Shown: piece by piece, positions 11,858 to 34,598 of the stretch
Position numbering within the stretch: position 1 is the stretch's first letter
Layout of the letters: each line of letters opens with the position of its first letter
Assembly (NCBI GenBank): GCA_028685665.1
Contig: JAQUDN010000010.1
Location: 1 to 36,472 of the forward strand
Direction of reading: 5' to 3'
Length of the DNA: 36,472 nucleotides
Source: Burkholderiaceae bacterium
GTDB taxonomy: Bacteria > Pseudomonadota > Gammaproteobacteria > Burkholderiales > Burkholderiaceae_C
The notes under the pieces: model-generated
Seen by the model: the letters and a program-made list of their open reading frames with translations, nothing else
The model's database searches: none
What the model was told of the DNA's origin: nothing
Position numbers and translations under genes: made by a program

Positions 11858-13036
11858 ATGTCCGAAGCCTATCTCGTTGCCACGGCCCGCACCGCCGGAG
11901 GCCGCCGGGGCGGCCGCCTGTCCGGCTGGCACCCGGTGGAGCTGTCTGCCCAGATCCTGAACGCCCTGGTGGACCGCAGCGGCATCGACCCGGCCCTGGT
12001 CGAGGATGTGTTCATGGGCTGCGTCAGCCAGGTGGGCGAGCAGTCCACCAACGTGGCGCGCAACGCGGTGCTGGCGTCCAAACTGCCCGAGTCGGTGCCC
12101 GGCACCTCGATCGACCGCCAGTGCGGCTCGTCCCAGCAGGCCATCCACTTCGCGGCGCAGGCGGTGATGTCCGGCGCCATGGACGTGGTGATTGCCGCCG
12201 GCGTCGAGTCCATGAGCCGCGTGCCCATGTTCAGCCCCACGGCCCTGGCGCAAAAAGCCGGCCTGGGCCACTACCAGAGCCCCAGCGTCAACCGCCGCTA
12301 CAACGAGGTAGTGTTCAGCCAGTTCATGGGCGCGGAAATGATGGCCCGCAAATACGGCCTGAGCAAGGACGACCTGGACCGCTACGCCCTGCAAAGCCAC
12401 CAGCGCGCCATCGCGGCCACGCAGGCCGGCGCCTTCCAGGACGAGATCGTGCCCGTGCGCGTACGCACCGCCGACGGCACCGACACCGAGGACTGGCACA
12501 CCGTCGATGAAGGCATCCGCTTCGAGGCCACGCTCGAAGGCATCCAGAACGTGAAGCTGCTGCAGGAAGGCGGCGTGGTCACCGCCGCCAACGCCAGCCA
12601 GATTTGCGACGGCGCCACCGGCGTGATGGTGGTCAACGAGCGCGGCCTCAAAGCCCTGGGCGTGCAGCCCCTGGCGCGCATCCACCACATGACCATGATC
12701 GGCCACGACCCGGTGATCATGCTGGAGGCCCCCATTCCGGCCACCGAGCGCGCGCTCAAGAAGGCCGGCATGAAAATCGAGGACATCGACCTGTACGAGG
12801 TCAACGAGGCCTTTGCCTCGGTGCCGCTGGCCTGGCTCAAGGCCCTGGGCGCCGACCCCGAGCGCCTGAACGTGAACGGCGGCGCCATCGCGCTGGGCCA
12901 CCCGCTGGGGGCCTCGGGCACCAAGCTCATGGCCACCCTGGTCAACGCCCTGGGCCAGCGCGGCAAGCGCTATGGTCTGCAGACCATGTGCGAGGGCGGC
13001 GGCATGGCGAACGTGACCCTCATCGAGCGCCTGTAA
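11858..13036 (+). CDS. Acetyl-CoA C-acyltransferase (thiolase)
   Basis: 'DRQCGSSQQAIHFAAQAVMSG' active-site Cys, 'VNGGAIALGHPLGASGTKL', 'GLQTMCEGGGMAN' thiolase signatures. Confidence 0.95.
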   Translation: MSEAYLVATARTAGGRRGGRLSGWHPVELSAQILNALVDRSGIDPALVEDVFMGCVSQVGEQSTNVARNAVLASKLPESVPGTSIDRQCGSSQQAIHFAAQAVMSGAMDVVIAAGVESMSRVPMFSPTALAQKAGLGHYQSPSVNRRYNEVVFSQFMGAEMMARKYGLSKDDLDRYALQSHQRAIAATQAGAFQDEIVPVRVRTADGTDTEDWHTVDEGIRFEATLEGIQNVKLLQEGGVVTAANASQICDGATGVMVVNERGLKALGVQPLARIHHMTMIGHDPVIMLEAPIPATERALKKAGMKIEDIDLYEVNEAFASVPLAWLKALGADPERLNVNGGAIALGHPLGASGTKLMATLVNALGQRGKRYGLQTMCEGGGMANVTLIERL

Positions 13037-13039
13037 GCC

Positions 13040-13846
13040 ATGGCGACCCCCCACAGCGACCGGGGCGATCCGCCCCTGCTGCACATCGAGGGCGTCACCG
13101 TGCGTTTTGGCGGCATCGTGGCGCTGGATGGGGTGTCCTTCGACGTGCGGCGTGGGCAGATTTGCGCGCTGATCGGCCCCAACGGCGCGGGCAAGAGCAC
13201 GCTGTTCAACTGCCTGTCGCGGCTGTACGCCTGCAACAGCGGCCACATCGCCTTCGATGGCCACCCCTTGTCCACCCTGCCGCGCCACCGCATGGCGGAG
13301 ATCGGCATTGGCCGCACCTTCCAGAACCTGGCGCTGTTTCGCAGCATGAGCGTGCGCGAGAACATCCTGGTGGGCTGCCACAGCAAGCACCATGCGGGCT
13401 TCCTGCGCAACGCGTTTCGCCTGCCCGGCGTGGCGCGCATCGAGGCCGATGCGCAGGTGCGCGCGCAGTCGCTGATCGACTTTCTGGGCCTCACGGCCGA
13501 GGCCGAGCGCGTGGTGGCCGACCTGCCCTTTGGCACGCAAAAGCGCGTGGAACTGGGCCGCGCCCTGGCTGCCCAGCCCCAGCTGCTGTTGTTGGACGAG
13601 CCCGCCTGCGGCCTGAACCACGAGGAACTGCACAGCCTGGGCAGCCTGATCCGTGACATCCGCGACCGCCTGGGCGTGACGGTGCTGCTGGTGGAGCACC
13701 ACATGGCCCTGGTGATGGGGATTTCCGACCATGTGGTGGCGCTGAACTTTGGCAAGAAGATCGCCGAGGGCACGCCCGCCGAGGTGCGGCGCCACCCCGA
13801 GGTGATCCGCGCCTACCTGGGCACGACCGAGGAGGAGACGGCATGA
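13040..13846 (+). CDS. livG: Branched-chain amino acid-type ABC transporter ATP-binding protein (LivG-like)
   Basis: Walker A 'GPNGAGKST', 'GIGRTFQNLALF', 'LPFGTQKRVELGRALAAQPQLLLLDEPACGLN', C-terminal LivG-type extension. Confidence 0.93.
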   Translation: MATPHSDRGDPPLLHIEGVTVRFGGIVALDGVSFDVRRGQICALIGPNGAGKSTLFNCLSRLYACNSGHIAFDGHPLSTLPRHRMAEIGIGRTFQNLALFRSMSVRENILVGCHSKHHAGFLRNAFRLPGVARIEADAQVRAQSLIDFLGLTAEAERVVADLPFGTQKRVELGRALAAQPQLLLLDEPACGLNHEELHSLGSLIRDIRDRLGVTVLLVEHHMALVMGISDHVVALNFGKKIAEGTPAEVRRHPEVIRAYLGTTEEETA

Positions 13847-14595
13847 CGCCCCCGAACCCCGCCCATCCCCCCAAGCCCGCGAACAAGATCCTTGAAGTGC
13901 GGGGCCTGCACGCCCGCTATGGCAACACCCGCGTGCTGCACGGCATCGACCTGGACATCGCCGACGGCCAGGTCACCGCGCTGCTGGGCGCCAACGGCGC
14001 CGGCAAGACGACCACGCTGCGCGCGTTGTGCCAGCTGATGGTGCAGACCAGTGGCAGCATCACGCTGGCGGGCCAGCGCATGGATGGCCGCTCCACCGAG
14101 CAGATTGCCCGCGCCGGCGTGGGCCATGTGCCCGATGGCCGTGGCACCTTCCTGGGCCTGAGCACCGAAGAAAACCTGCGCCTGGGCACCTATGCCCGCG
14201 CCAGCCGCAGCGGCATCCCAGAGGACATGGAGCGCATCTACGGCTACTTTCCGCGCCTGCGCGAGCGGGCCGCGCAGCAGGCAGGCACGCTGTCGGGCGG
14301 CGAGCAGCAGATGCTGGCCATTGGCCGCGCGCTGATGGGCCGCCCGCGCCTGCTGCTGCTCGACGAGCCGTCCTTCGGCCTGGCGCCGCTGGTGGTGCAG
14401 GACATCTTCGCGATCATGCGGCGCATCAACCAGGAGGAGAAGGTCTCCATCCTGCTGGTGGAGCAAAACGCCAAGCTGGCGCTGGAGCTGGCCGACCAGG
14501 CCTACCTGCTGGAGACCGGGTGCGTGGTGTTGTCGGGCTCGGCCGCCGAGATGCGCCGCAACGACGCGGTCCGCAAGGCCTATCTGGGCGAATGA
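13843..14595 (+). CDS. livF: Branched-chain amino acid-type ABC transporter ATP-binding protein (LivF-like)
   Basis: Walker A 'GANGAGKTTT', 'LSGGEQQMLAIGRALMGRPRLLLLDEPSFGLAP'; overlaps the livG stop by 4 nt. Confidence 0.93.
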   Translation: MTPPNPAHPPKPANKILEVRGLHARYGNTRVLHGIDLDIADGQVTALLGANGAGKTTTLRALCQLMVQTSGSITLAGQRMDGRSTEQIARAGVGHVPDGRGTFLGLSTEENLRLGTYARASRSGIPEDMERIYGYFPRLRERAAQQAGTLSGGEQQMLAIGRALMGRPRLLLLDEPSFGLAPLVVQDIFAIMRRINQEEKVSILLVEQNAKLALELADQAYLLETGCVVLSGSAAEMRRNDAVRKAYLGE

Positions 14596-14608
14596 GGAAG
14601 GCAAGACG

Positions 14609-15481
14609 ATGAACGAATTCCTGCACCAGCTGCTGGCGGGCCTGGCCACCGGCGGCATCTACGCCAGCGTGGCGCTGGCCCTGGTGATGATCTACCAGGC
14701 CACGCAGCACATCAATTTCGCGCAGGGCGAGATGGCGATGTTCTCCACCTTCATCGCCTGGAGCCTGATCCAGGCGGGGCTGCCGTACTGGGGGGCCTTC
14801 TTCCTGACGGTGGTGATCTCCTTTGTGCTGGCGGCGGTGGTGGAGTTCGCCGTCATCCGCCCCATGCACCGCGCGCCCGAGCTGTCGGTGGTGGTGGTGT
14901 TCATCGGCCTGCTGGTGATCTTCCACAGCCTGGCGGGCTGGCTGTTTGGCTACACGATCAAGCAGTTTCCCAGCCCGTTTCCGGCCAATGCCTGGTATGG
15001 CTCGGCGCTGATGTCGGCGCACGAGGTGGGCGCCATCGTCGTCGCCCTGCTGATGGTGGCGGCGCTGTTTGCCTTCTTCCGCCTCACGCCGCTGGGCCTG
15101 GCGCTGCGCGCTGCGGCGCAGAACGCGCCCTCGTCGCGCCTGGTGGGCATCAACGTGGGCCGCATGCTGATGCTGGGCTGGGGCCTGGCCGGCGCGATCG
15201 GCGCGGTGGCCGGGATGATGGTGGCCCCCGTGGTGTTTCTCGACCCGCACATGATGACCGGCGTGCTGCTGTACGCCTTTGCCGGCGCGCTGATCGGCGG
15301 CATCGACAACCCGGTGGGCGCGGTGATGGGCGGCTTCATCGTCGGTGTGCTGGAAAACCTGATCGGCACCTACATCGTGGGTACCGAGCTCAAGCTCTCG
15401 GTGGCGCTGGTGCTGATCGTGGGCGTGTTGATCGTGCGGCCGGCCGGCCTGCTGGGCAAAACCATTGTGAAGCGGGTGTAA
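14609..15481 (+). CDS. livH: Branched-chain amino acid-type ABC transporter permease (LivH-like)
   Basis: 'LLAGLATGGIYASVALALVMIYQATQHINFAQGEMAM' and multiple TM segments. Confidence 0.92.
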   Translation: MNEFLHQLLAGLATGGIYASVALALVMIYQATQHINFAQGEMAMFSTFIAWSLIQAGLPYWGAFFLTVVISFVLAAVVEFAVIRPMHRAPELSVVVVFIGLLVIFHSLAGWLFGYTIKQFPSPFPANAWYGSALMSAHEVGAIVVALLMVAALFAFFRLTPLGLALRAAAQNAPSSRLVGINVGRMLMLGWGLAGAIGAVAGMMVAPVVFLDPHMMTGVLLYAFAGALIGGIDNPVGAVMGGFIVGVLENLIGTYIVGTELKLSVALVLIVGVLIVRPAGLLGKTIVKRV

Positions 15482-15484
15482 GCC

Positions 15485-16441
15485 ATGAACCAGACCTCTC
15501 CCCTGTGCTCGGCCCGCGTCTGGGGCCCCGTCCTGCTGCTGCTGGCCCTGGGCCTGCCCTTCGTGGCCAAGGGCTACCAGATCTTCCAGGCCACCATGGT
15601 GCTGTCGTATGCGATTTCGCTCCTGGGCCTGAACATCCTGACCGGCTACAACGGCCAGATCTCGCTGGGCCACGGCGCCTTTTATGCCCTGGGCGCCTAC
15701 ACCACCGGCATGCTGATGGAGCACGCCGGCATGCCGTACTGGCTGACGATTCCCTGCGCGGCGCTGGTCTGCCTAGTGGTGGGCTACCTGTTCGGGCGCC
15801 CCGCGCTCAAGCTCGAAGGCCTCTACCTGGCGCTGGCCACCTTTGCGCTGGGCGTGGCCATGCCGCAGCTGCTCAAGTACAAGCACCTGGAAGCCTGGAC
15901 TGGCGGCGTGACCGGCATCGTGCTGATGAAGCCCGATGCGCCGTTTGGCCTGCCGCTGTCGCAGGACCAGTGGCTGTACTTCTTTGCGCTGCTGGTGGCG
16001 GCGGTGATGTTCTGGATCGCGCACAACCTGCTGGCCAGCGGCACGGGCCGGGCCATCCGCGCCATCCGCGACCACAGCATGGCGGCCGAAGCCATGGGGG
16101 TGGACAACCGCCACTACAAGTCCATGAGCTTTGGCGTGTCGGCTGCCTACACCGGCGTGGGCGGGGCGCTGTCGGCGATTGCGGTGCAGTTCGTCTCGCC
16201 CGACTCCTTCACGCTGTTTTTGTCGATCTCGCTGCTGGTGGGCATCGTCGTGGGCGGCGTGGGCACGCTGTGGGGGGCCTTGTGGGGCGCCGCCTTCATC
16301 ATGTTCGTGCCCAACCTGGCGGAGAAGGTCTCCAAGGCCGCGCCCTGGGCGGTGTATGGCCTGGTGCTGATCGCCTTCATGTTCGTGATGCCCGGGGGCG
16401 TGGTCGGCCTGCTGCGCAAACTCCAGGCCAAGTTCAAGTGA
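15485..16441 (+). CDS. livM: Branched-chain amino acid-type ABC transporter permease (LivM-like)
   Basis: 'LLGLNILTGYNGQISLGHGAFYALGAY', 'GVGGALSAIAVQFVSPDSF' LivM signatures. Confidence 0.92.
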   Translation: MNQTSPLCSARVWGPVLLLLALGLPFVAKGYQIFQATMVLSYAISLLGLNILTGYNGQISLGHGAFYALGAYTTGMLMEHAGMPYWLTIPCAALVCLVVGYLFGRPALKLEGLYLALATFALGVAMPQLLKYKHLEAWTGGVTGIVLMKPDAPFGLPLSQDQWLYFFALLVAAVMFWIAHNLLASGTGRAIRAIRDHSMAAEAMGVDNRHYKSMSFGVSAAYTGVGGALSAIAVQFVSPDSFTLFLSISLLVGIVVGGVGTLWGALWGAAFIMFVPNLAEKVSKAAPWAVYGLVLIAFMFVMPGGVVGLLRKLQAKFK

Positions 16442-18298: not shown

Positions 18299-18579
18299 GG
18301 GAATGATCCCTTTTGGGGTTCTTCCCCCTGTGGATATTCTTGGGTGGGAATGTTTTTGTTTTTCAAATGATTTTCCTTGGATATTTGAATATTTAGATGT
18401 TGAAGATGGTTTCAACGAATTGGATTCGTGAAATTCCATGGATTTAATTTTATGGTTTCTCCTGTGGAATAAAAAGACACAGATAAGCCCATAAAAACAG
18501 AAACAGTTTTATAAAAAACGGCTCTGTTATGGTGGATTTACCTAGAATGTGTTTCCCTTGTTGTCCATCCACTGCCACC

Positions 18580-20028
18580 ATGCCCAATCCCCCGAGATAC
18601 CAGCAACTGGCCCAGCATTACCAGCAAGCCATTGAGGGCGGTGCGCTGGGTGTGGGTGACAAGCTCCCGTCGCTGCGAACGCTGATGCGCTTGCACGGCG
18701 TGGGACTTTCGACGGCGCTCCAGACGTGCCGCACGCTGGAAGAGGGTGGCTGGGTGCAGGGGCGGGAGCGTTCCGGCTACTTTGTGCGACGGCCATCGCG
18801 CATGGGCGGTATGCCACCGCCGGATGCGCCTGCCCTCCAAAGGCTGCCTGACCCTGCGCAATTCGTTGGTATTCACGAAAAGGTATCGGCCTTTGTCGCC
18901 CGGCGCCAGCAAGGAGGGCTGCGGCTGGATCTTTCCGTGGCCCACTGCGTTCCCGCGCTGTACCCCGGCGATGCGCTGCGCGCCGCGATGGCGCGCAGCC
19001 TGCGCCAGCAACCGGAGTTGCTTACCGCGCCGCCCCCCCAGGACTGTCTGCCTTTTGGCACCGCCGTAGCGCGGCGCGCCTTGCGTGCAGGGATGCAGTT
19101 GACCCCTCTGGATGTGTTGCCCACGCATGGCTGCACTGAGGCGCTGCACCTGGCCTTGCGTGCGGTCGCCCACCCTGGCGACACCGTGGCAGTGGAATCC
19201 CCTGCGTTCTACGGTTTGCTGCAGATCCTGGAAAGCCTGGGCTTGCGTGCGCTGGAAGTACCGACCCATGCACGCACGGGCTTGTCGGTCGAGGCGCTGG
19301 AGTTGGCGCTGTCGGCCTATGAGCGCATTCGCGCCGTGGTCGTGGTGCCCCATTTGCAAAACCCCTTGGGCAGCGTCATGCCCGATGCGCACAAGGCCCC
19401 GTTGGTGCGCCTGTGCAGTGCCCACGGTGTGGCGGTGATCGAGGACGACTGCTATAGCGAATTGTTCGACGATGGCAGCGCCCCGCGGGCGCTCCAGTCG
19501 TTCGACCAGGATGGCAGCGTGATCCACTGCGCATCGCTGCACAAGGCCCTGGCGCCAGGGCTACGGCTGGGATGGATGCATGGCGGGCGCTGGCATGCGC
19601 GGGTGCAAATGCTCAAGCAAGCCCACAGCCGCAGCAATGCCGCGCTGCCCTTGTGGGCCGTGGGTGGGTTCATGGCCAGCGGTGCCTACGAACGGCATCT
19701 GCAGCGGCTGCGTCTCGCCTTGCGCGTGCAGCGCGAGCGCAGCGCCGACTGCATCGCGGCCCATTTCCCCCCCGGTACACACATTGCCCGGCCCGCCGGC
19801 GGGGTGCAGCTGTGGGTGGAGCTGCCCAAGCCTTTGCCTGCCCAGCTTGTTTTTGAGGCGGCACTGCGCGAGGGCATTCTGGTCGCTCCGGGCGCCTTGT
19901 TTTCCCACAGCGGGCGCTTTGATCATTGCCTGCGCATCAACTGCGGCCAGCCCTGGACAGAGTCTCTGGAAGACGGATTGCGTCGCCTTGGCACCATTGC
20001 CACGCAGGCGTGGGCTGGTACGGGGTGA
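18580..20028 (+). CDS. MocR-type transcriptional regulator (GntR HTH fused to a PLP-dependent aminotransferase-like domain)
   Basis: N-terminal GntR HTH 'YQQLAQHYQQAIEGGALGVGDKLPSLRTLMRLHGVGLSTALQTCRTLEEGGWVQGRERSGYFV'; C-terminal fold-type I aminotransferase with 'PTHGCTEALHLAL', 'VVVPHLQNPLGSVM', 'DDCYSELF', 'SLHKALAPGLRLGW'. Confidence 0.93.
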   Translation: MPNPPRYQQLAQHYQQAIEGGALGVGDKLPSLRTLMRLHGVGLSTALQTCRTLEEGGWVQGRERSGYFVRRPSRMGGMPPPDAPALQRLPDPAQFVGIHEKVSAFVARRQQGGLRLDLSVAHCVPALYPGDALRAAMARSLRQQPELLTAPPPQDCLPFGTAVARRALRAGMQLTPLDVLPTHGCTEALHLALRAVAHPGDTVAVESPAFYGLLQILESLGLRALEVPTHARTGLSVEALELALSAYERIRAVVVVPHLQNPLGSVMPDAHKAPLVRLCSAHGVAVIEDDCYSELFDDGSAPRALQSFDQDGSVIHCASLHKALAPGLRLGWMHGGRWHARVQMLKQAHSRSNAALPLWAVGGFMASGAYERHLQRLRLALRVQRERSADCIAAHFPPGTHIARPAGGVQLWVELPKPLPAQLVFEAALREGILVAPGALFSHSGRFDHCLRINCGQPWTESLEDGLRRLGTIATQAWAGTG

Positions 20029-22505: not shown

Positions 22506-24305
22506 TCAGTGGTACAGCGCCTCGATGTCGGCGGCGTAGGTCTGGGTGATGCTGGAGCGGCGCACCTTCATGGTGGCGGTGACTTCGCCATCGTCGTGGT
22601 CGAGTTCCTTGGTGAGCAGGTGGAACTTGCGGATCTGCGAGACCTGCGCCAGCCGGGCGTTGCCCTTGGCGATTTCTGCCTCGATCAGCGCGCGCACCGC
22701 AGGGGTCTCGACCAGGGAGCGGAAATGCGTGAAGGCCATGCGCTGCGATTCGGCCCACTGGCCCACGGTGTCGTAGTCGATCTGCACCAGCGCGCCCACG
22801 AACTTGCGGCCCTCGGCCACGATCACGCATTCCTTGATGTAGGGGCTGGCCTTCATGGTGTTCTCGATCTCGGAGGGCGTCAGGTTCTTGCCGCCGGCGG
22901 TGATCATGATGTCCTTGAGGCGGTCCACGATCTTGAGCTGGCCTTGTTCCTCGCGCACCACGTCGCCGGTGTGCAGCCAGCCGTCCACGATGCTGCTGGC
23001 CGTGGCCTCGGGGTTTTTGTAGTAACCGGCAAACACCATGTCGCCGCGCAGCTGGAACTCGCCGTTCTCGGCAATGCGCCAGGCCACGCCCTCCGTGGGC
23101 ACGCCCACGGTGCCGATGGCGACCTGGTCCGGCCGGTGGCCCGTGACCATGCCGGTGGACTCGGTCAGGCCATAGACCTCGATCAGCGGCACGCCCAGCA
23201 CCCGAAAAAACCGCACCACCTCCGGCGGGATCGGCGCGGCACCGGTCAGTGCCACCCGGACTTCGCGCAGGCCGATGAAGTTCTGCAGCGCGCGGAACAC
23301 CGTCCAGTAGCTGGCGTAGAAGCGCGCCTTGTCGCCCAGGGTCCAGGCGCTGCGGGGTTTTTCGGCCAGGGCCTGGCAGGCGGCATAGGCGGTCTCGAAG
23401 AGCTGGCGGCGCCATCGGCCGGTTTCGCGGACCTTGATATTGATGGCCGCGTGCATTTTTTCCCAGATGCGGGGCACGCCCAGGAACAGGGTGGGCGCCA
23501 CTTCGCGCAGGTCTTCCTGCACGGTGCGGATGGATTCGCCAAAGTTCACCTGCGAGCCCAGGTACAGCGGCACGAAGGTGGTCAGCATCTGCTCGGCCAC
23601 ATGGCACAGCGGCAGGTAGGACAGGTGGGTGGTGTCGGGGCGCAGCTGCAGCCGCTCGATGATGCCCGGCACCGCGCCCCGGATGTTGCGGTAGGAAATC
23701 ATCGCGCCCTTGGGCTTGCCCGTGGAGCCCGAGGTGTAGATCATCAGCCCGATGTCGTCGAGCGTCTGGGCGGCCAGGGCCTCGTCGATCAGCGCCGGGT
23801 GGCTGGCGGCCTGGCCCAGGGCTTCGACCTCGGCGAAGGTGACGATCAGGCGGCGCTCTTCGGGCGTGAAGCTGCGCAGGCCCTTGGTTTCCATGACCAC
23901 GATGTGCGTCAGGCGCGGCAGATCGGCCCGTGCGGCCAGCACCTTGTCGGTTTGCTCCTGGTCTTCGCAGACCATGATCTCGATGTCGGCATGCTGGACC
24001 ACATAGGCCACTTCCGGCGTGGGGCTGGTGGGGTACACGCCCACGGTGATGGCGCCGACCAGGCCCGCTCCCATCTGGGCCAGCACCCATTCGATGCGGT
24101 TTTCCGAGATCACGCCCACATGGCCCTGCGCAGGCAGGCCCAGCGCGCGCAGGCCCAGGCCGACGTGGCAGGCGCGCTGGTAGTAGCGCGCCCAGTCGAA
24201 GGGCTTCCAGATGCCGAAGTCCTTTTGCCGGATCGCCACGCGGTGGGCGTCCTGGCGTGCGCGCTCGCGCAGCATCTGCGGCAGAGTCAGTTCAGGAAAG
24301 TTCAT
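22506..24305 (-). CDS. AMP-binding acyl-CoA ligase (long-chain fatty acid--CoA ligase type)
   Basis: 'MIYTSGSTGKPKGAMISYRNI', 'EVYGLTESTGM', 'DGWLHTGDVV', 'DRLKDIMITAGGKNLTPSEIEN'. Start at ATG 24305. Confidence 0.94.
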   Translation of the reverse strand: MNFPELTLPQMLRERARQDAHRVAIRQKDFGIWKPFDWARYYQRACHVGLGLRALGLPAQGHVGVISENRIEWVLAQMGAGLVGAITVGVYPTSPTPEVAYVVQHADIEIMVCEDQEQTDKVLAARADLPRLTHIVVMETKGLRSFTPEERRLIVTFAEVEALGQAASHPALIDEALAAQTLDDIGLMIYTSGSTGKPKGAMISYRNIRGAVPGIIERLQLRPDTTHLSYLPLCHVAEQMLTTFVPLYLGSQVNFGESIRTVQEDLREVAPTLFLGVPRIWEKMHAAINIKVRETGRWRRQLFETAYAACQALAEKPRSAWTLGDKARFYASYWTVFRALQNFIGLREVRVALTGAAPIPPEVVRFFRVLGVPLIEVYGLTESTGMVTGHRPDQVAIGTVGVPTEGVAWRIAENGEFQLRGDMVFAGYYKNPEATASSIVDGWLHTGDVVREEQGQLKIVDRLKDIMITAGGKNLTPSEIENTMKASPYIKECVIVAEGRKFVGALVQIDYDTVGQWAESQRMAFTHFRSLVETPAVRALIEAEIAKGNARLAQVSQIRKFHLLTKELDHDDGEVTATMKVRRSSITQTYAADIEALYH

Positions 24306-24380
24306 TTCAGAGGTCCATGGCGCTGTGCCTGGGGCACCCGCGTGAAAACTGGCGCAATCCAAGCCAGCGGCCACCGCGCA

Positions 24381-27701: not shown

Positions 27702-28583
27702 CTAGAGCCTTTCGATTTCGTGGGTGCCGAACAGGCCGTAGGGGCGCACCATCAGGATGGCCACCAGCACCAGGAAGGTGGCCAGCAGCTTGAACTCGCC
27801 GCCCAGGTAGGCGCCGGCCAGCGCCTCGACCAGGCCAATGCACAGGCCGCCGACCAGCGCGCCGAGCACGCTGTCCAGCCCGCCGACGATCACCACCACC
27901 AGCACCGACAGGCCGAACACCCCCATGCTCGATGAAATGCCGCCGATCGAGCCGACGATGATTCCGGACAGGGCTGCCAGCATGCTGGATACCACCCAGG
28001 CCAGCGAGAACACCCGGGGCACGTTGATGCCCACCGAGTACGCGGCCGCCTGGTCCGAGGCCGTGGCCCGCAGCGCCACGCCGCCGCGCCAGAAGCGGAA
28101 CACCAGCAGCACCGCCGCGATGAAGACCACCGCCACCATCGCGCCCCAGAACACCTTGGGCGCCAGGAAGGCCTCGCCCACCATGATGGGCTGGGTGGGC
28201 ATGAATTCGATCAGGCGGCGCTGGTCGGCCGACCAGATCATCTCGACCAGCCCCACCAGCACCGAGGCCAGGCCCACGGTGACCATGAACACCGAAATGG
28301 GGGGCTCGCCGAGCAGGGGGCGGATCATGGTGCGCTCGATCACCGCGCCCAGCAGCCCGGTGCCCAGCACGGCGGCCGGAACGGCCACCCACAGCGGCAG
28401 TGCCAGCATCGAGGCAAAGGTGAAGAACAGGTAGGCGCCGACCATCAGCATCTCGCCGATGGCGATGTTGACCACCCGCGTGGCCTTGTAGACCATCACG
28501 AAGGCCAGGGCTGCCAGCGCGTACAGGCCGCCGCTGGCCAGGCCGGTGAGGGCGATTTCGAACAGGAAAGCCCAATCCATCAT
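27702..28583 (-). CDS. livH: Branched-chain amino acid-type ABC transporter permease (LivH-like)
   Basis: 'ALTGLASGGLYALAALAFVMVYKATRVVNIAIGEMLM', multiple TM segments; start overlaps the livG stop. Confidence 0.92.
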   Translation of the reverse strand: MMDWAFLFEIALTGLASGGLYALAALAFVMVYKATRVVNIAIGEMLMVGAYLFFTFASMLALPLWVAVPAAVLGTGLLGAVIERTMIRPLLGEPPISVFMVTVGLASVLVGLVEMIWSADQRRLIEFMPTQPIMVGEAFLAPKVFWGAMVAVVFIAAVLLVFRFWRGGVALRATASDQAAAYSVGINVPRVFSLAWVVSSMLAALSGIIVGSIGGISSSMGVFGLSVLVVVIVGGLDSVLGALVGGLCIGLVEALAGAYLGGEFKLLATFLVLVAILMVRPYGLFGTHEIERL

Positions 28584-29455
28584 GCGACTCCGGTGGCAAG
28601 GGGAAGGGCGCTCGGGCCGGCCTTGGCGCTGTGCAGCTTGCGGCGCAGCTCGCCCACATCGCCCGAGCCCAGGTAGGCGCGGACCACTTCGGGGTTGGCC
28701 TGCACCTCGGCCGGCAGGCCCTGGGCAATGACCTGGCCAAAGTTCAGCACCACGACATGGTCGGACAGGTCCATCACCATGCCCATGTCGTGCTCGACCA
28801 TCAGCACCGTCACGCCCCATTCGGCGCGCACGTCGAGGATGAAGCGGGCCATGTCCTCGGTCTCCTCGCGGTTCATGCCGGCGACGGGCTCGTCCAGCAT
28901 CAGGATTTCGGGCTGCATGGCCAGCGCACGCGCCATTTCCACGCGCTTTTGCAGGCCGTAGGGCAGGGCGGCCACGGGGGCGTGGCGGATGTGGTCGATT
29001 TCCAGGAAATCGATGATGCGTTCCTCGATCTCGGCGCGCAGGGCGGCCTCCTCGCGGCGGGCGCGGCCCAGGTAGAACAGGGCATCGAACACATTGGTTT
29101 TGAGGTGGGCATGGCGGCCCAGCTTGATGTTGTCCAGCACCGTCATGCCGCGGAACAGCGCGATGTTCTGGAAGCTGCGGCCCAGGCCCCGCTGGGCCCG
29201 CAGCGGCGCGGGCACGCGGGTGATGTCTTCCCCCTTGAAGCGGATGCTGCCGCCCGTGGGCCGGTAAAAGCCCGAGATGGTGTTGAACAGCGAGGTCTTG
29301 CCGGCGCCGTTGGGGCCGATCACGGCCGTGATCGAGCCGGGCTGTACCTCGAAGCCGACGCCGGACAGGGCTTTGACGCCGCCAAAGGCAAGCGTGACGC
29401 TGTCCACCTGCAACAGGGGCGCAGCCTGGGGGCGGCGGTTGGCTTGTGTCTCCAT
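28580..29455 (-). CDS. livG: Branched-chain amino acid-type ABC transporter ATP-binding protein (LivG-like)
   Basis: 'GPNGAGKTSLFNTISGFYRP', 'GLGRSFQNIALFRGMTVLDNIKLGRH', 'LPYGLQKRVEMARALAMQPEILMLDEPVAGMN'. Confidence 0.93.
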   Translation of the reverse strand: METQANRRPQAAPLLQVDSVTLAFGGVKALSGVGFEVQPGSITAVIGPNGAGKTSLFNTISGFYRPTGGSIRFKGEDITRVPAPLRAQRGLGRSFQNIALFRGMTVLDNIKLGRHAHLKTNVFDALFYLGRARREEAALRAEIEERIIDFLEIDHIRHAPVAALPYGLQKRVEMARALAMQPEILMLDEPVAGMNREETEDMARFILDVRAEWGVTVLMVEHDMGMVMDLSDHVVVLNFGQVIAQGLPAEVQANPEVVRAYLGSGDVGELRRKLHSAKAGPSALPLATGVA

Positions 29456-29490
29456 CGGGGCCTTGTACGGGTTTGTGCGAACCGTGTTTT

Positions 29491-29525
29491 TCTACTTTTA
29501 CGTAGACTGTCTACTTGTGAGTAGA
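29491..29525. promoter_or_regulatory. Two tandem 16-bp palindromic boxes TCTAC-N6-GTAGA (29491-29506 and 29510-29525); candidate TetR-family operator
   Basis: Sequence reads TCTACTTTTACGTAGA-CTG-TCTACTTGTGAGTAGA; located 36 bp upstream of the divergent livG start and on the tetR side of the shared intergenic region. Confidence 0.7.
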
Positions 29526-29575
29526 TTCTGGGATCTCCCGCTGACCCGCGGCATTGGTACTTTCCCTGCGCACCC

Positions 29576-30865
29576 TGTATGGACCGGAGAGATGGGAAAC
29601 GGGTGTGCGAGGACATAGGAAACACTTCTTCAGCGCGAGTAGCGCAAGGAGAAGCCTATGACTTGGCAACCGAAAGACCTCATGGACATCAAACGCGACT
29701 TCGTAGCGCTCGCTCTGCAGGAAGGGTGCAACCGGCGCGAGTTGTGCCGACGCTTTGGCATCAGCCCGAAGACCGGCTACGCGCTGCTGGCACGCCACGC
29801 GCAGGAGGGATCTGCAGCCTATGTGCCCCGTTCCCGAAGGCCCGCAGGAAGTCCTACACGTACCTCGCCAGAAGTAGAGAAGGCCGTGACCGATCTGCGC
29901 ACCATGCATCCGGCCTGGGGTGGCCGCAAGATCGCCCGGCGTCTGGCAGACCTGGGGATGGACAAGGTACCGCCCGCGAGCACCATTACCGCCATCTTGC
30001 ATCGCCATGGCCTGATCAGCCCTCAGGCCAGTTTGGCCGCCCAGCACTGGCAGCGCTTCGAGCACGAGCGTCCCAACGCGCTGTGGCAAATCGACTTCAA
30101 GGGAGACTTTGCAACCGAGCAGGCGCGCTGCTACCCGCTGACGCTGCTGGACGACCATTCGCGCTTCAATCTGGCGCTGCAGGCCTGCTCCGGCGTGGCC
30201 GCCAGCGGCGTGCAACCTCACTTGAGCCAGGTGTTTCAGCGCTATGGGCTGCCGATGCGCATCAATGCTGACAACGGCGCGCCCTGGGGCAGTCCCCGGC
30301 GGGCGGAGCACGGCCTGAGCGAGCTGAGCGTGTGGCTGATTCGGCTGGGCATACGCGTGAGCCACAGCGCGCCCTACCATCCGCAGACCAATGGCAAGAT
30401 CGAGCGCTTTCACCGTTCGCTCCAAGCCGAGGTGCTGGCCGGACGCAGCTTTGCCAATCTGCAGCAGGCGCAGACGGCCTTCGAGCACTGGCGCGACGTC
30501 TACAACCACGATCGCCCCCACGATGCGCTGAACCTGCAGACGCCCGCCATGCGCTACCAGCCCAGCCTTATCAGCTATCCGCAGACTTTGCCCCCCATCG
30601 AGTACCCCGATGGCGACACGGTGGCGCTCGTCAAGTGGAACGGCGAGGTGCACTTCAAGGGCAACAAACTGCGGGTATCGAGTGCGCTGCTCAAGCTGCC
30701 AATAGCCTTCAGAGCAGACGCTGAGAACCACGATTGCTACGATGTGTTCTTTTGCCATCACCGCTTCATGCGGCTCGATTTAAGTGCGCCGGCAGCCGCC
30801 GTTTGAGACCCCCAGGTGTTTCCTATGTCCTCGCACACCCGTTTCCCATCTCTCCGGTCCATACA
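29576..30865 (+). mobile_element. Complete IS481-family insertion sequence, 1,290 bp
   Basis: 50-bp perfect terminal inverted repeats (29576-29625 and 30816-30865; TGTATGGACCGGAGAGATGGGAAACGGGTGTGCGAGGACATAGGAAACAC), 6-bp direct repeat GCACCC at 29570-29575 and 30866-30871, single DDE transposase ORF. Confidence 0.95.
29658..30806 (+). CDS. IS481-family DDE transposase
   Basis: HTH 'LALQEGCNRRELCRRFGISPKTGYALLARH' plus rve integrase core 'NALWQIDFKGDF', 'LTLLDDHSRF', 'INADNGAPWGS', 'SAPYHPQTNGKIERFHRSLQAEV'. Confidence 0.95.
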   Translation: MTWQPKDLMDIKRDFVALALQEGCNRRELCRRFGISPKTGYALLARHAQEGSAAYVPRSRRPAGSPTRTSPEVEKAVTDLRTMHPAWGGRKIARRLADLGMDKVPPASTITAILHRHGLISPQASLAAQHWQRFEHERPNALWQIDFKGDFATEQARCYPLTLLDDHSRFNLALQACSGVAASGVQPHLSQVFQRYGLPMRINADNGAPWGSPRRAEHGLSELSVWLIRLGIRVSHSAPYHPQTNGKIERFHRSLQAEVLAGRSFANLQQAQTAFEHWRDVYNHDRPHDALNLQTPAMRYQPSLISYPQTLPPIEYPDGDTVALVKWNGEVHFKGNKLRVSSALLKLPIAFRADAENHDCYDVFFCHHRFMRLDLSAPAAAV

Positions 30866-30872
30866 GCACCCC

Positions 30873-31535
30873 ATGACCCTGCAAAAAATGGCCCGCAAGC
30901 CTTCCCCTGCACCCGAGGCCGCTTCCCCGTGGAGCGGTGCGCCCGACCGTGAACAGCAGCGCGAGGCCAAGCGCCAGGCGGTGCTGTCGGCGGCCGCGCA
31001 GCTGTTCAACGAGCGCGGCTTTCACGCCACCTCGCTCGACGACATTGCCGCGCGGCTCCAGGTGAGCAAGCCCACGCTGTACTACTACGTCAAGAACAAG
31101 GAAGAAATCCTGCTGGGCTGTGTGCGCCAGGGCCTGCAGATGACGATTGAGGGCATCGAGGCCTCGCGGGCGGCAGGCGGCAAGGCCATCGATCAGCTCA
31201 TGGCCTGCATGCAGGTGTATGCGCGCATCGTGATGCAGGACTTCGGGATGTGCCTGATCCGGGTGGGCGACGAGGAGCTGTCGCCCGACAGCCGCCAGGA
31301 GCTGCGGCGGCTCAAATCAGAGATTGACCAGGCCTTTCGCCGGCTGGTGGCCGAGGGCGTGGCCGAGGGCTCGCTGCCACCGTGCGACCCCAAGATGACC
31401 GCCTTCGTGATCGCCGGCGCGCTGAGCTGGGTGGGCCGCTGGTACCAGCCCGGCGGGGCGTACACGCCCGAGCAGGTGGCCGACCAGTGCATTGCCACCC
31501 TGTGCCAGGGCATCCTGAAGCGCCCGGGCGGTTGA
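30873..31535 (+). CDS. TetR/AcrR-family transcriptional regulator
   Basis: 'RQAVLSAAAQLFNERGFHATSLDDIAARLQVSKPTLYYYVKNKEEILLGCVRQGL' TetR_N HTH; ATG at 30873, 8 bp after the IS end. In-frame starts also exist inside the IS end (GTG 30816, ATG 30825). Confidence 0.93.
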   Translation: MTLQKMARKPSPAPEAASPWSGAPDREQQREAKRQAVLSAAAQLFNERGFHATSLDDIAARLQVSKPTLYYYVKNKEEILLGCVRQGLQMTIEGIEASRAAGGKAIDQLMACMQVYARIVMQDFGMCLIRVGDEELSPDSRQELRRLKSEIDQAFRRLVAEGVAEGSLPPCDPKMTAFVIAGALSWVGRWYQPGGAYTPEQVADQCIATLCQGILKRPGG

Positions 31536-31586: not shown

Positions 31587-31787
31587 TTACAGCAGCACGT
31601 CGTAGCCCGCCTCGACAATGGCGGTGGCCAGCGCATCGCGGGTGTGGTGGGTGTCCACGGTGACTTTGTCATGGGCGCGGTCGATGAGGACCTGGGCTTC
31701 GGGGTCCACGCTGTGTACGGCTTCGGTCACGGCTTTCTCGCAATGGCCGCAGGTCATGCCTTGAACGGTCAGGGTGTATTGGTGCAT
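31587..31787 (-). CDS. copZ: Heavy-metal-associated domain protein (CopZ-like copper chaperone)
   Basis: 'MHQYTLTVQGMTCGHCEKAVTEAVHSVDPEAQVLID', 66 aa with GMTCxxC motif. Confidence 0.88.
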   Translation of the reverse strand: MHQYTLTVQGMTCGHCEKAVTEAVHSVDPEAQVLIDRAHDKVTVDTHHTRDALATAIVEAGYDVLL

Positions 31788-32112
31788 GGGGGCTCCTGGC
31801 TCACAAAAAAGGGTGAAAACGGGAGCGGTATCTTCGCATGGGCGGTGACCTGGTCGCGGAACTTGGCGGGGAGGCCCTTGGGGGGGAGTACGTCCACCGC
31901 CACGCCCAGCAGTTGGGAAAGTTCGAGCTGGACTTGGCAATGTCCATCAGCGTGGTCTCGGGCGTCGGCTCCACCAAGAGGTCGAGGTCGTTGTCGTCGG
32001 TGTCTTCGCCCTGCGCCACCGAGCCGAACACGCGCAGATGGGTGACTCGGTGGCGCACGGCGATGGTGCGAATGGCATCGCGGTGGGTCTGGCGTGCGGT
32101 CAATGGGCGCAT
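31769..32112 (-). pseudogene. MntA/MNT-type nucleotidyltransferase, apparently frameshifted
   Basis: N-terminal frame (start 32112) has 'RHRVTHLRVFGSVAQGEDTDDNDLDLLVEPTPETTLMDIAK'; the family-like continuation 'VQLELSQLLGVAVDVLPPKGLPAKFRDQVTAHAKIPL' is in a different - frame. A single missing base near 31935-31940 would restore one ORF. Confidence 0.7.
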
Positions 32113-32359
32113 GGCTCGGGCTCCTGAAGCTATCGAAATGTCGTGTCACAAAGCGGCGCCACCCCTCAGCCAGGGACACGATGCCTGTTCCGAGGCCGAA
32201 GCTTGGGGTCTTTTGATCCTCCAGCCCAACAAATACCATCGGTGCCAGCTATTAATTCAGGAGTGATTGATCCGCCTCAAGGGCCCGCAGCCCGCGCAGT
32301 CCACCACCCCGCGCGCTTGGTGGGATGATGGCCTGTGCCCCCGCACGATGGATTTGCCC

Positions 32360-34598
<2,239 letters not shown>

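Follow-up and report, generated by a model that had tools for sequence, protein, structure and literature searches.

What becomes of a TetR-type regulator when an insertion sequence lands in the control region that its gene shares with a divergent operon? The window, by which we mean the whole 36,472-nucleotide stretch of Burkholderiaceae DNA that was analysed, raises this question because an IS sits in the divergent gap between a livG-type ABC ATPase gene and a tetR gene (Table 1). Seven nucleotides lie between the IS and the tetR start codon (ATG at 30873), whose A is the eighth base; this corrects the distance of 8 bp given in an earlier, sequence-only reading of this DNA.

Table 1 Features of the livG/tetR locus in the window, ordered by position.
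Feature	Position	Strand	Remarks
livG-type ABC ATPase, first gene of divergent operon	28580..29455	-	
Conserved element CGGGTTTGTGCGAACC, livG side	29468..29483	-	conserved across many Comamonadaceae loci
Operator-like box A, CTACTTTTACGTAG	29492..29505		conserved in relatives
Operator-like box B, CTACTTGTGAGTAG	29511..29524		19 bp from box A; conserved in relatives
Conserved element GGCATTGGTACTTTCCCT, tetR side	29550..29567	+	relatives' consensus GCATc.GtAcTTtCCC, 17-19 nt after boxes
Target duplication GCACCC, left copy	29570..29575		6 bp
IS481-family insertion sequence	29576..30865	+	1,290 bp; 50/50 bp inverted repeats; IS481 transposase; single copy in assembly
Left inverted repeat	29576..29625	+	50 bp
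Transposase, 382 aa, intact	29658..30806	+	NF033577 match; AAGGAG upstream of ATG
Right inverted repeat	30816..30865	-	50 bp
Possible in-frame TetR N-terminal extension, 16 codons	30825..30872	+	open frame from 30807; AGGTG upstream
Target duplication GCACCC, right copy	30866..30871		6 bp
TetR-family regulator, 220 aa, intact	30873..31535	+	TetR_N, TetR_C_24; orthologues adjoin livG in relatives

The inserted DNA is a complete IS, as the sequence-only reading had claimed. Its ends read TGTATGG...CCATACA, with the TGT...ACA termini of the IS481 family, and one end, TGTATGGACCGG..., matches the reverse complement of the other at 50/50 bases; a 51st matching base pair of the repeats is flanking DNA outside the IS. 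The transposase scores 272 bits against the NCBIfam IS481 profile NF033577 (cut-off 224) and contains rve, HTH and LZ_Tnp_IS481 domains, and GCACCC stands on both sides of the element. Transposase type, TGT...ACA repeats and a short direct duplication, here 6 bp, thus all place the element in the IS481 family. A perfect 50-bp repeat combined with an exact duplication is far beyond chance. The perfection of these repeats and the length of 1,290 bp are where the window element differs from the family, the type IS481 element being shorter than this. A search of the assembly gave a single match and no further copies of the IS in its own genome, and no match was found in a search of plasmids. The source of the element was not found either, the nearest copies being 76–77% identical at the DNA level. 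The inverted repeats of related copies match at 44–47 of 50 positions, compared to 50/50 in the window, and their target duplications are 5–8 bp long. The perfect repeats, the exact duplication and the open transposase and TetR frames fit a fairly recent insertion. An intact transposase gene, together with four identical copies of a relative in genome G370, suggests that relatives of the IS are active.

On the host side, the TetR protein matches PF00440 (N-terminal DNA-binding domain, 61.7 bits) and PF17932 (C-terminal domain, 99 bits), and has relatives of ~70–85% identity across Acidovorax, Simplicispira, Delftia, Comamonas and others. The livG-type ATPase gene is followed in its operon by genes for permeases, a binding protein and a second ATPase, and an AMP-binding enzyme (22506–24374) and an enoyl-CoA hydratase are encoded on the same side. 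Elsewhere, the window carries a second liv-type ABC cluster with a thiolase (11858–16438, + strand) and a GntR/aminotransferase-type (MocR-like) regulator (18529–20025). A gene for a heavy-metal-associated domain protein (31590–31787, − strand) adjoins that of a divergent P-type ATPase with an HMA domain (32421–34598, + strand), and the two are likely a copper chaperone and exporter pair. A small nucleotidyltransferase-like frame (31769–32239, − strand) gives weak Pfam matches below the curated cut-offs at 31804–32112; it seems to continue in another frame, as a frameshifted gene or a sequence error would.

We then compared the locus with 85 distinct Comamonadaceae-type loci in which livG and tetR are divergent, all without the IS. 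Each of the 85 has an uninterrupted livG/tetR gap of ordinary length, which is the empty-site check that had been proposed at the outset. The aligned gaps contain three conserved blocks, namely a pair of boxes, an element on the tetR side and an element on the livG side. The boxes follow the form YTACTnnnnnGTARA and lie 19 bp apart, with a mean conservation of ~1.4–1.5 bits per column compared to 0.3–0.5 in their flanks (83 loci), and at the set score the tandem pair was present in 84/85 relatives. Palindromic boxes had been read at 29491–29525; the boxes are real, though their exact spans are those of Table 1. The GCATcGGtAcTTtCCC element is found 17–19 nt beyond the boxes toward tetR in the aligned relatives, and the tetR-side element of the window is probably a promoter or transcript start. 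The strongly conserved GCATTGGTACTTTCCC element is now on the livG side of the IS. Upstream of livG, the 29468–29483 element reads GGTTCGCACAAACCCG on the livG strand. In the window all three blocks lie to the left of the IS, and tetR retains only GCACCCC. The palindromic operator-like boxes of the divergent promoter region, which in relatives are adjacent to tetR, are thus present here and separated from tetR by the IS. The 85-locus comparison therefore agrees with the earlier proposal that the IS splits the gap and leaves the boxes with livG; tetR no longer adjoins its probable operator or any of the conserved elements of the shared control region.

From their conservation, symmetry and position, we infer that the tandem boxes are the operator of this TetR. 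The protein resembles the FadP and LiuQ regulators of Burkholderiales (PMC5343134, PMC12543098) in belonging to the TetR family and in having acyl-CoA and branched-chain-type transport genes as neighbours. FadP has been reported for Comamonadaceae (PMC5343134, PMC12543098) and controls on average ~18 genes per genome (PMC5343134), whereas a scan of the window's own genome found the tandem operator-like pair once, in the livG/tetR gap only.

How tetR might still be expressed depends on what now lies upstream. The old tetR promoter, the transposase gene and tetR all point in the + direction, and the tetR ATG follows the transposase stop (30804–30806) by 66 nt, in frame with it and uninterrupted by other stop codons. 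A scan of 29400–30950 found no terminator-like site on the + strand. Given this codirectional arrangement, read-through starting at the operator-controlled promoter may still feed tetR, if in attenuated form, and autoregulation may therefore be weakened instead of lost, so that calling it probably broken went too far. Nor was the statement that tetR expression now depends on the IS sustained, since the same scan, which is weak evidence on this point, found no outward sigma-70-like promoter at the right end of the element. The known IS481 promoters of Bordetella pertussis depart strongly from the consensus (PMC11774165), and by analogy a right-end outward promoter of non-consensus type is possible. 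A read-through RNA would hold both 50-nt repeats, which are predicted to pair over their full length. Because of this pairing the stability of the transcript may fall, and in this model the duplex could attract RNase III, cutting tetR output to near zero.

At the level of translation, the native ribosome-binding site of tetR had been thought displaced. This is unsupported, since a Shine-Dalgarno-like match is missing both from the leader of the empty site (dG −2.9) and from the new leader at ATG 30873 (anti-SD dG −3.5). An ATG at 30825, inside the right repeat, is preceded by AGGTG with an anti-SD dG of −6.4, compared to −3.5 for ATG 30873, and starting there could yield a predicted TetR that is 16 residues longer. 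The protein could probably accommodate such an extension, since relatives vary in the N-terminal stretch that precedes the DNA-binding domain. The sequence-only reading is thus right on the separation of tetR from its operator and too firm on the regulatory result.

We also rebuilt the empty sites of related IS copies and compared the targets. In G370 four identical copies, and in G242 and G311 one copy each, occupy the loops of a ACTTTTCTTTG-N6-CAAAGAAAAGT-type palindrome, and a 56% relative in G729 is inserted in a similar palindrome. Insertion in a palindrome loop was noted for loci L156, L162, L163 and L164 (G370), L039, L043 and L151. The palindrome sites are much more palindromic than their surroundings, where 0.04–0.23% of nearby positions score as high. 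Related copies in G295, G191 and G664 show a poor fit to the palindrome or none. Palindromes of this type with no IS in them are present in G370, G311 and G242, and in a variant form in G031. In the window's own genome no ACTTTTCTTTG-N6-CAAAGAAAAGT palindrome was found with up to 3 mismatches, and a shorter palindrome pattern showed no excess over the control. The window insertion was rejected as a palindrome insertion, as its arms pair at 3/12 positions compared to a background best-shifted mean of 5.3. To the left of the insertion, the flank TGGTACTTTCCCTGC forms a weak half-site within the top 0.45% of window positions, and both flanks together reach the top 1.6%; half-site use is suggestive only, as this scoring is post hoc and the profile T-rich. 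Most close relatives of the IS thus appear to insert into palindrome loops, and the window copy differs. Targeting of REP palindromes is known for the IS3, IS110, IS4, IS256 and IS5 families in a survey from which IS481 is absent (PMC1525189). The relatives in palindrome loops are like these elements, whereas the window insertion itself lies outside any palindrome. In the literature searched we found no specific report of an IS481 target preference for palindromes, and the preference of this subgroup may interest transposon specialists.

Taken together, we favour, with moderate confidence, an explanation in which a single IS481-family element transposed fairly recently into the livG/tetR control region, so that the two boxes and the promoter-side conserved element stayed with livG and tetR came to lie downstream of the transposase gene. 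Observed directly are the anatomy of the element, the unbroken genes and, in relatives, the conserved empty site. TetR would bind the tandem boxes and repress in both directions. Its production would now be lowered or altered, depending only on transcripts that read through from the promoter over transposase and tetR and/or start in the IS, and the protein may carry a short extra stretch at its N-terminus. Repression of the livG/acyl-CoA operon would then probably be less tight, with regulation persisting, because both the operators of the operon and the TetR protein have stayed intact. Our best reading is that TetR is reduced, not abolished, and the operon partly derepressed.

A more severe outcome, in which the insertion is effectively a tetR knock-out through scant read-through, a missing start signal and dsRNA cleavage and leaves the livG operon constitutive, appears unlikely to us although it deserves serious weight. 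It would fit the separation of all conserved elements from tetR, the ATG at 30873 that lacks a Shine-Dalgarno sequence and the predicted 50-bp RNA duplex. Against it, our scan gave no terminator anywhere from the old promoter to tetR, a second in-frame start codon preceded by AGGTG is available, and the TetR frame is unbroken, although after a recent insertion an unbroken frame would carry little weight. The opposite outcome, constitutive tetR expression from an outward promoter at the right end of the IS and over-repression of the livG operon, is less likely still. Outward promoter activity is documented for IS481 in B. pertussis (PMC11774165), where, as here, an IS481-family element lies beside a host gene whose expression it may alter. 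There, however, the outward promoter makes an antisense RNA to fim2, whereas in our locus tetR follows the right end and is read in the sense direction. The Pout documented for IS481 overlaps the transposase transcript start and points against the transposase gene, so that it exits the left end, away from the side of tetR here, and our scan found no promoter-like outward site at the right end.

We give slightly less credence again to an arrangement in which the host operator/promoter drives transposase and tetR together as a feedback unit, a palindrome-seeking IS481 subgroup having used the conserved ACTTTCCC element as a half-site where no canonical palindrome was available. Were this true, transcription of the IS would also come under the effector of a catabolic repressor. 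That the insertion is an artefact of assembly, or a variant carried by a minority of the sampled population, is highly improbable. The draft assembly is fragmented (285 contigs, 88% complete) and the genus is represented by one genome, but the 6-bp duplication is exact, the whole single-copy element lies within one contig, and orthologous flanks stand on both sides of it.

As a natural example the locus is clean, in that the IS has uncoupled a repressor gene from its probable operator while the latter stays with the target operon. The event is ordinary in kind, belongs to a well-known type and does not change the general view. In addition, the footprint from the 85 relatives provides a ready candidate operator for a liv/acyl-CoA operon regulator of the TetR family that appears to be widespread in Comamonadaceae.
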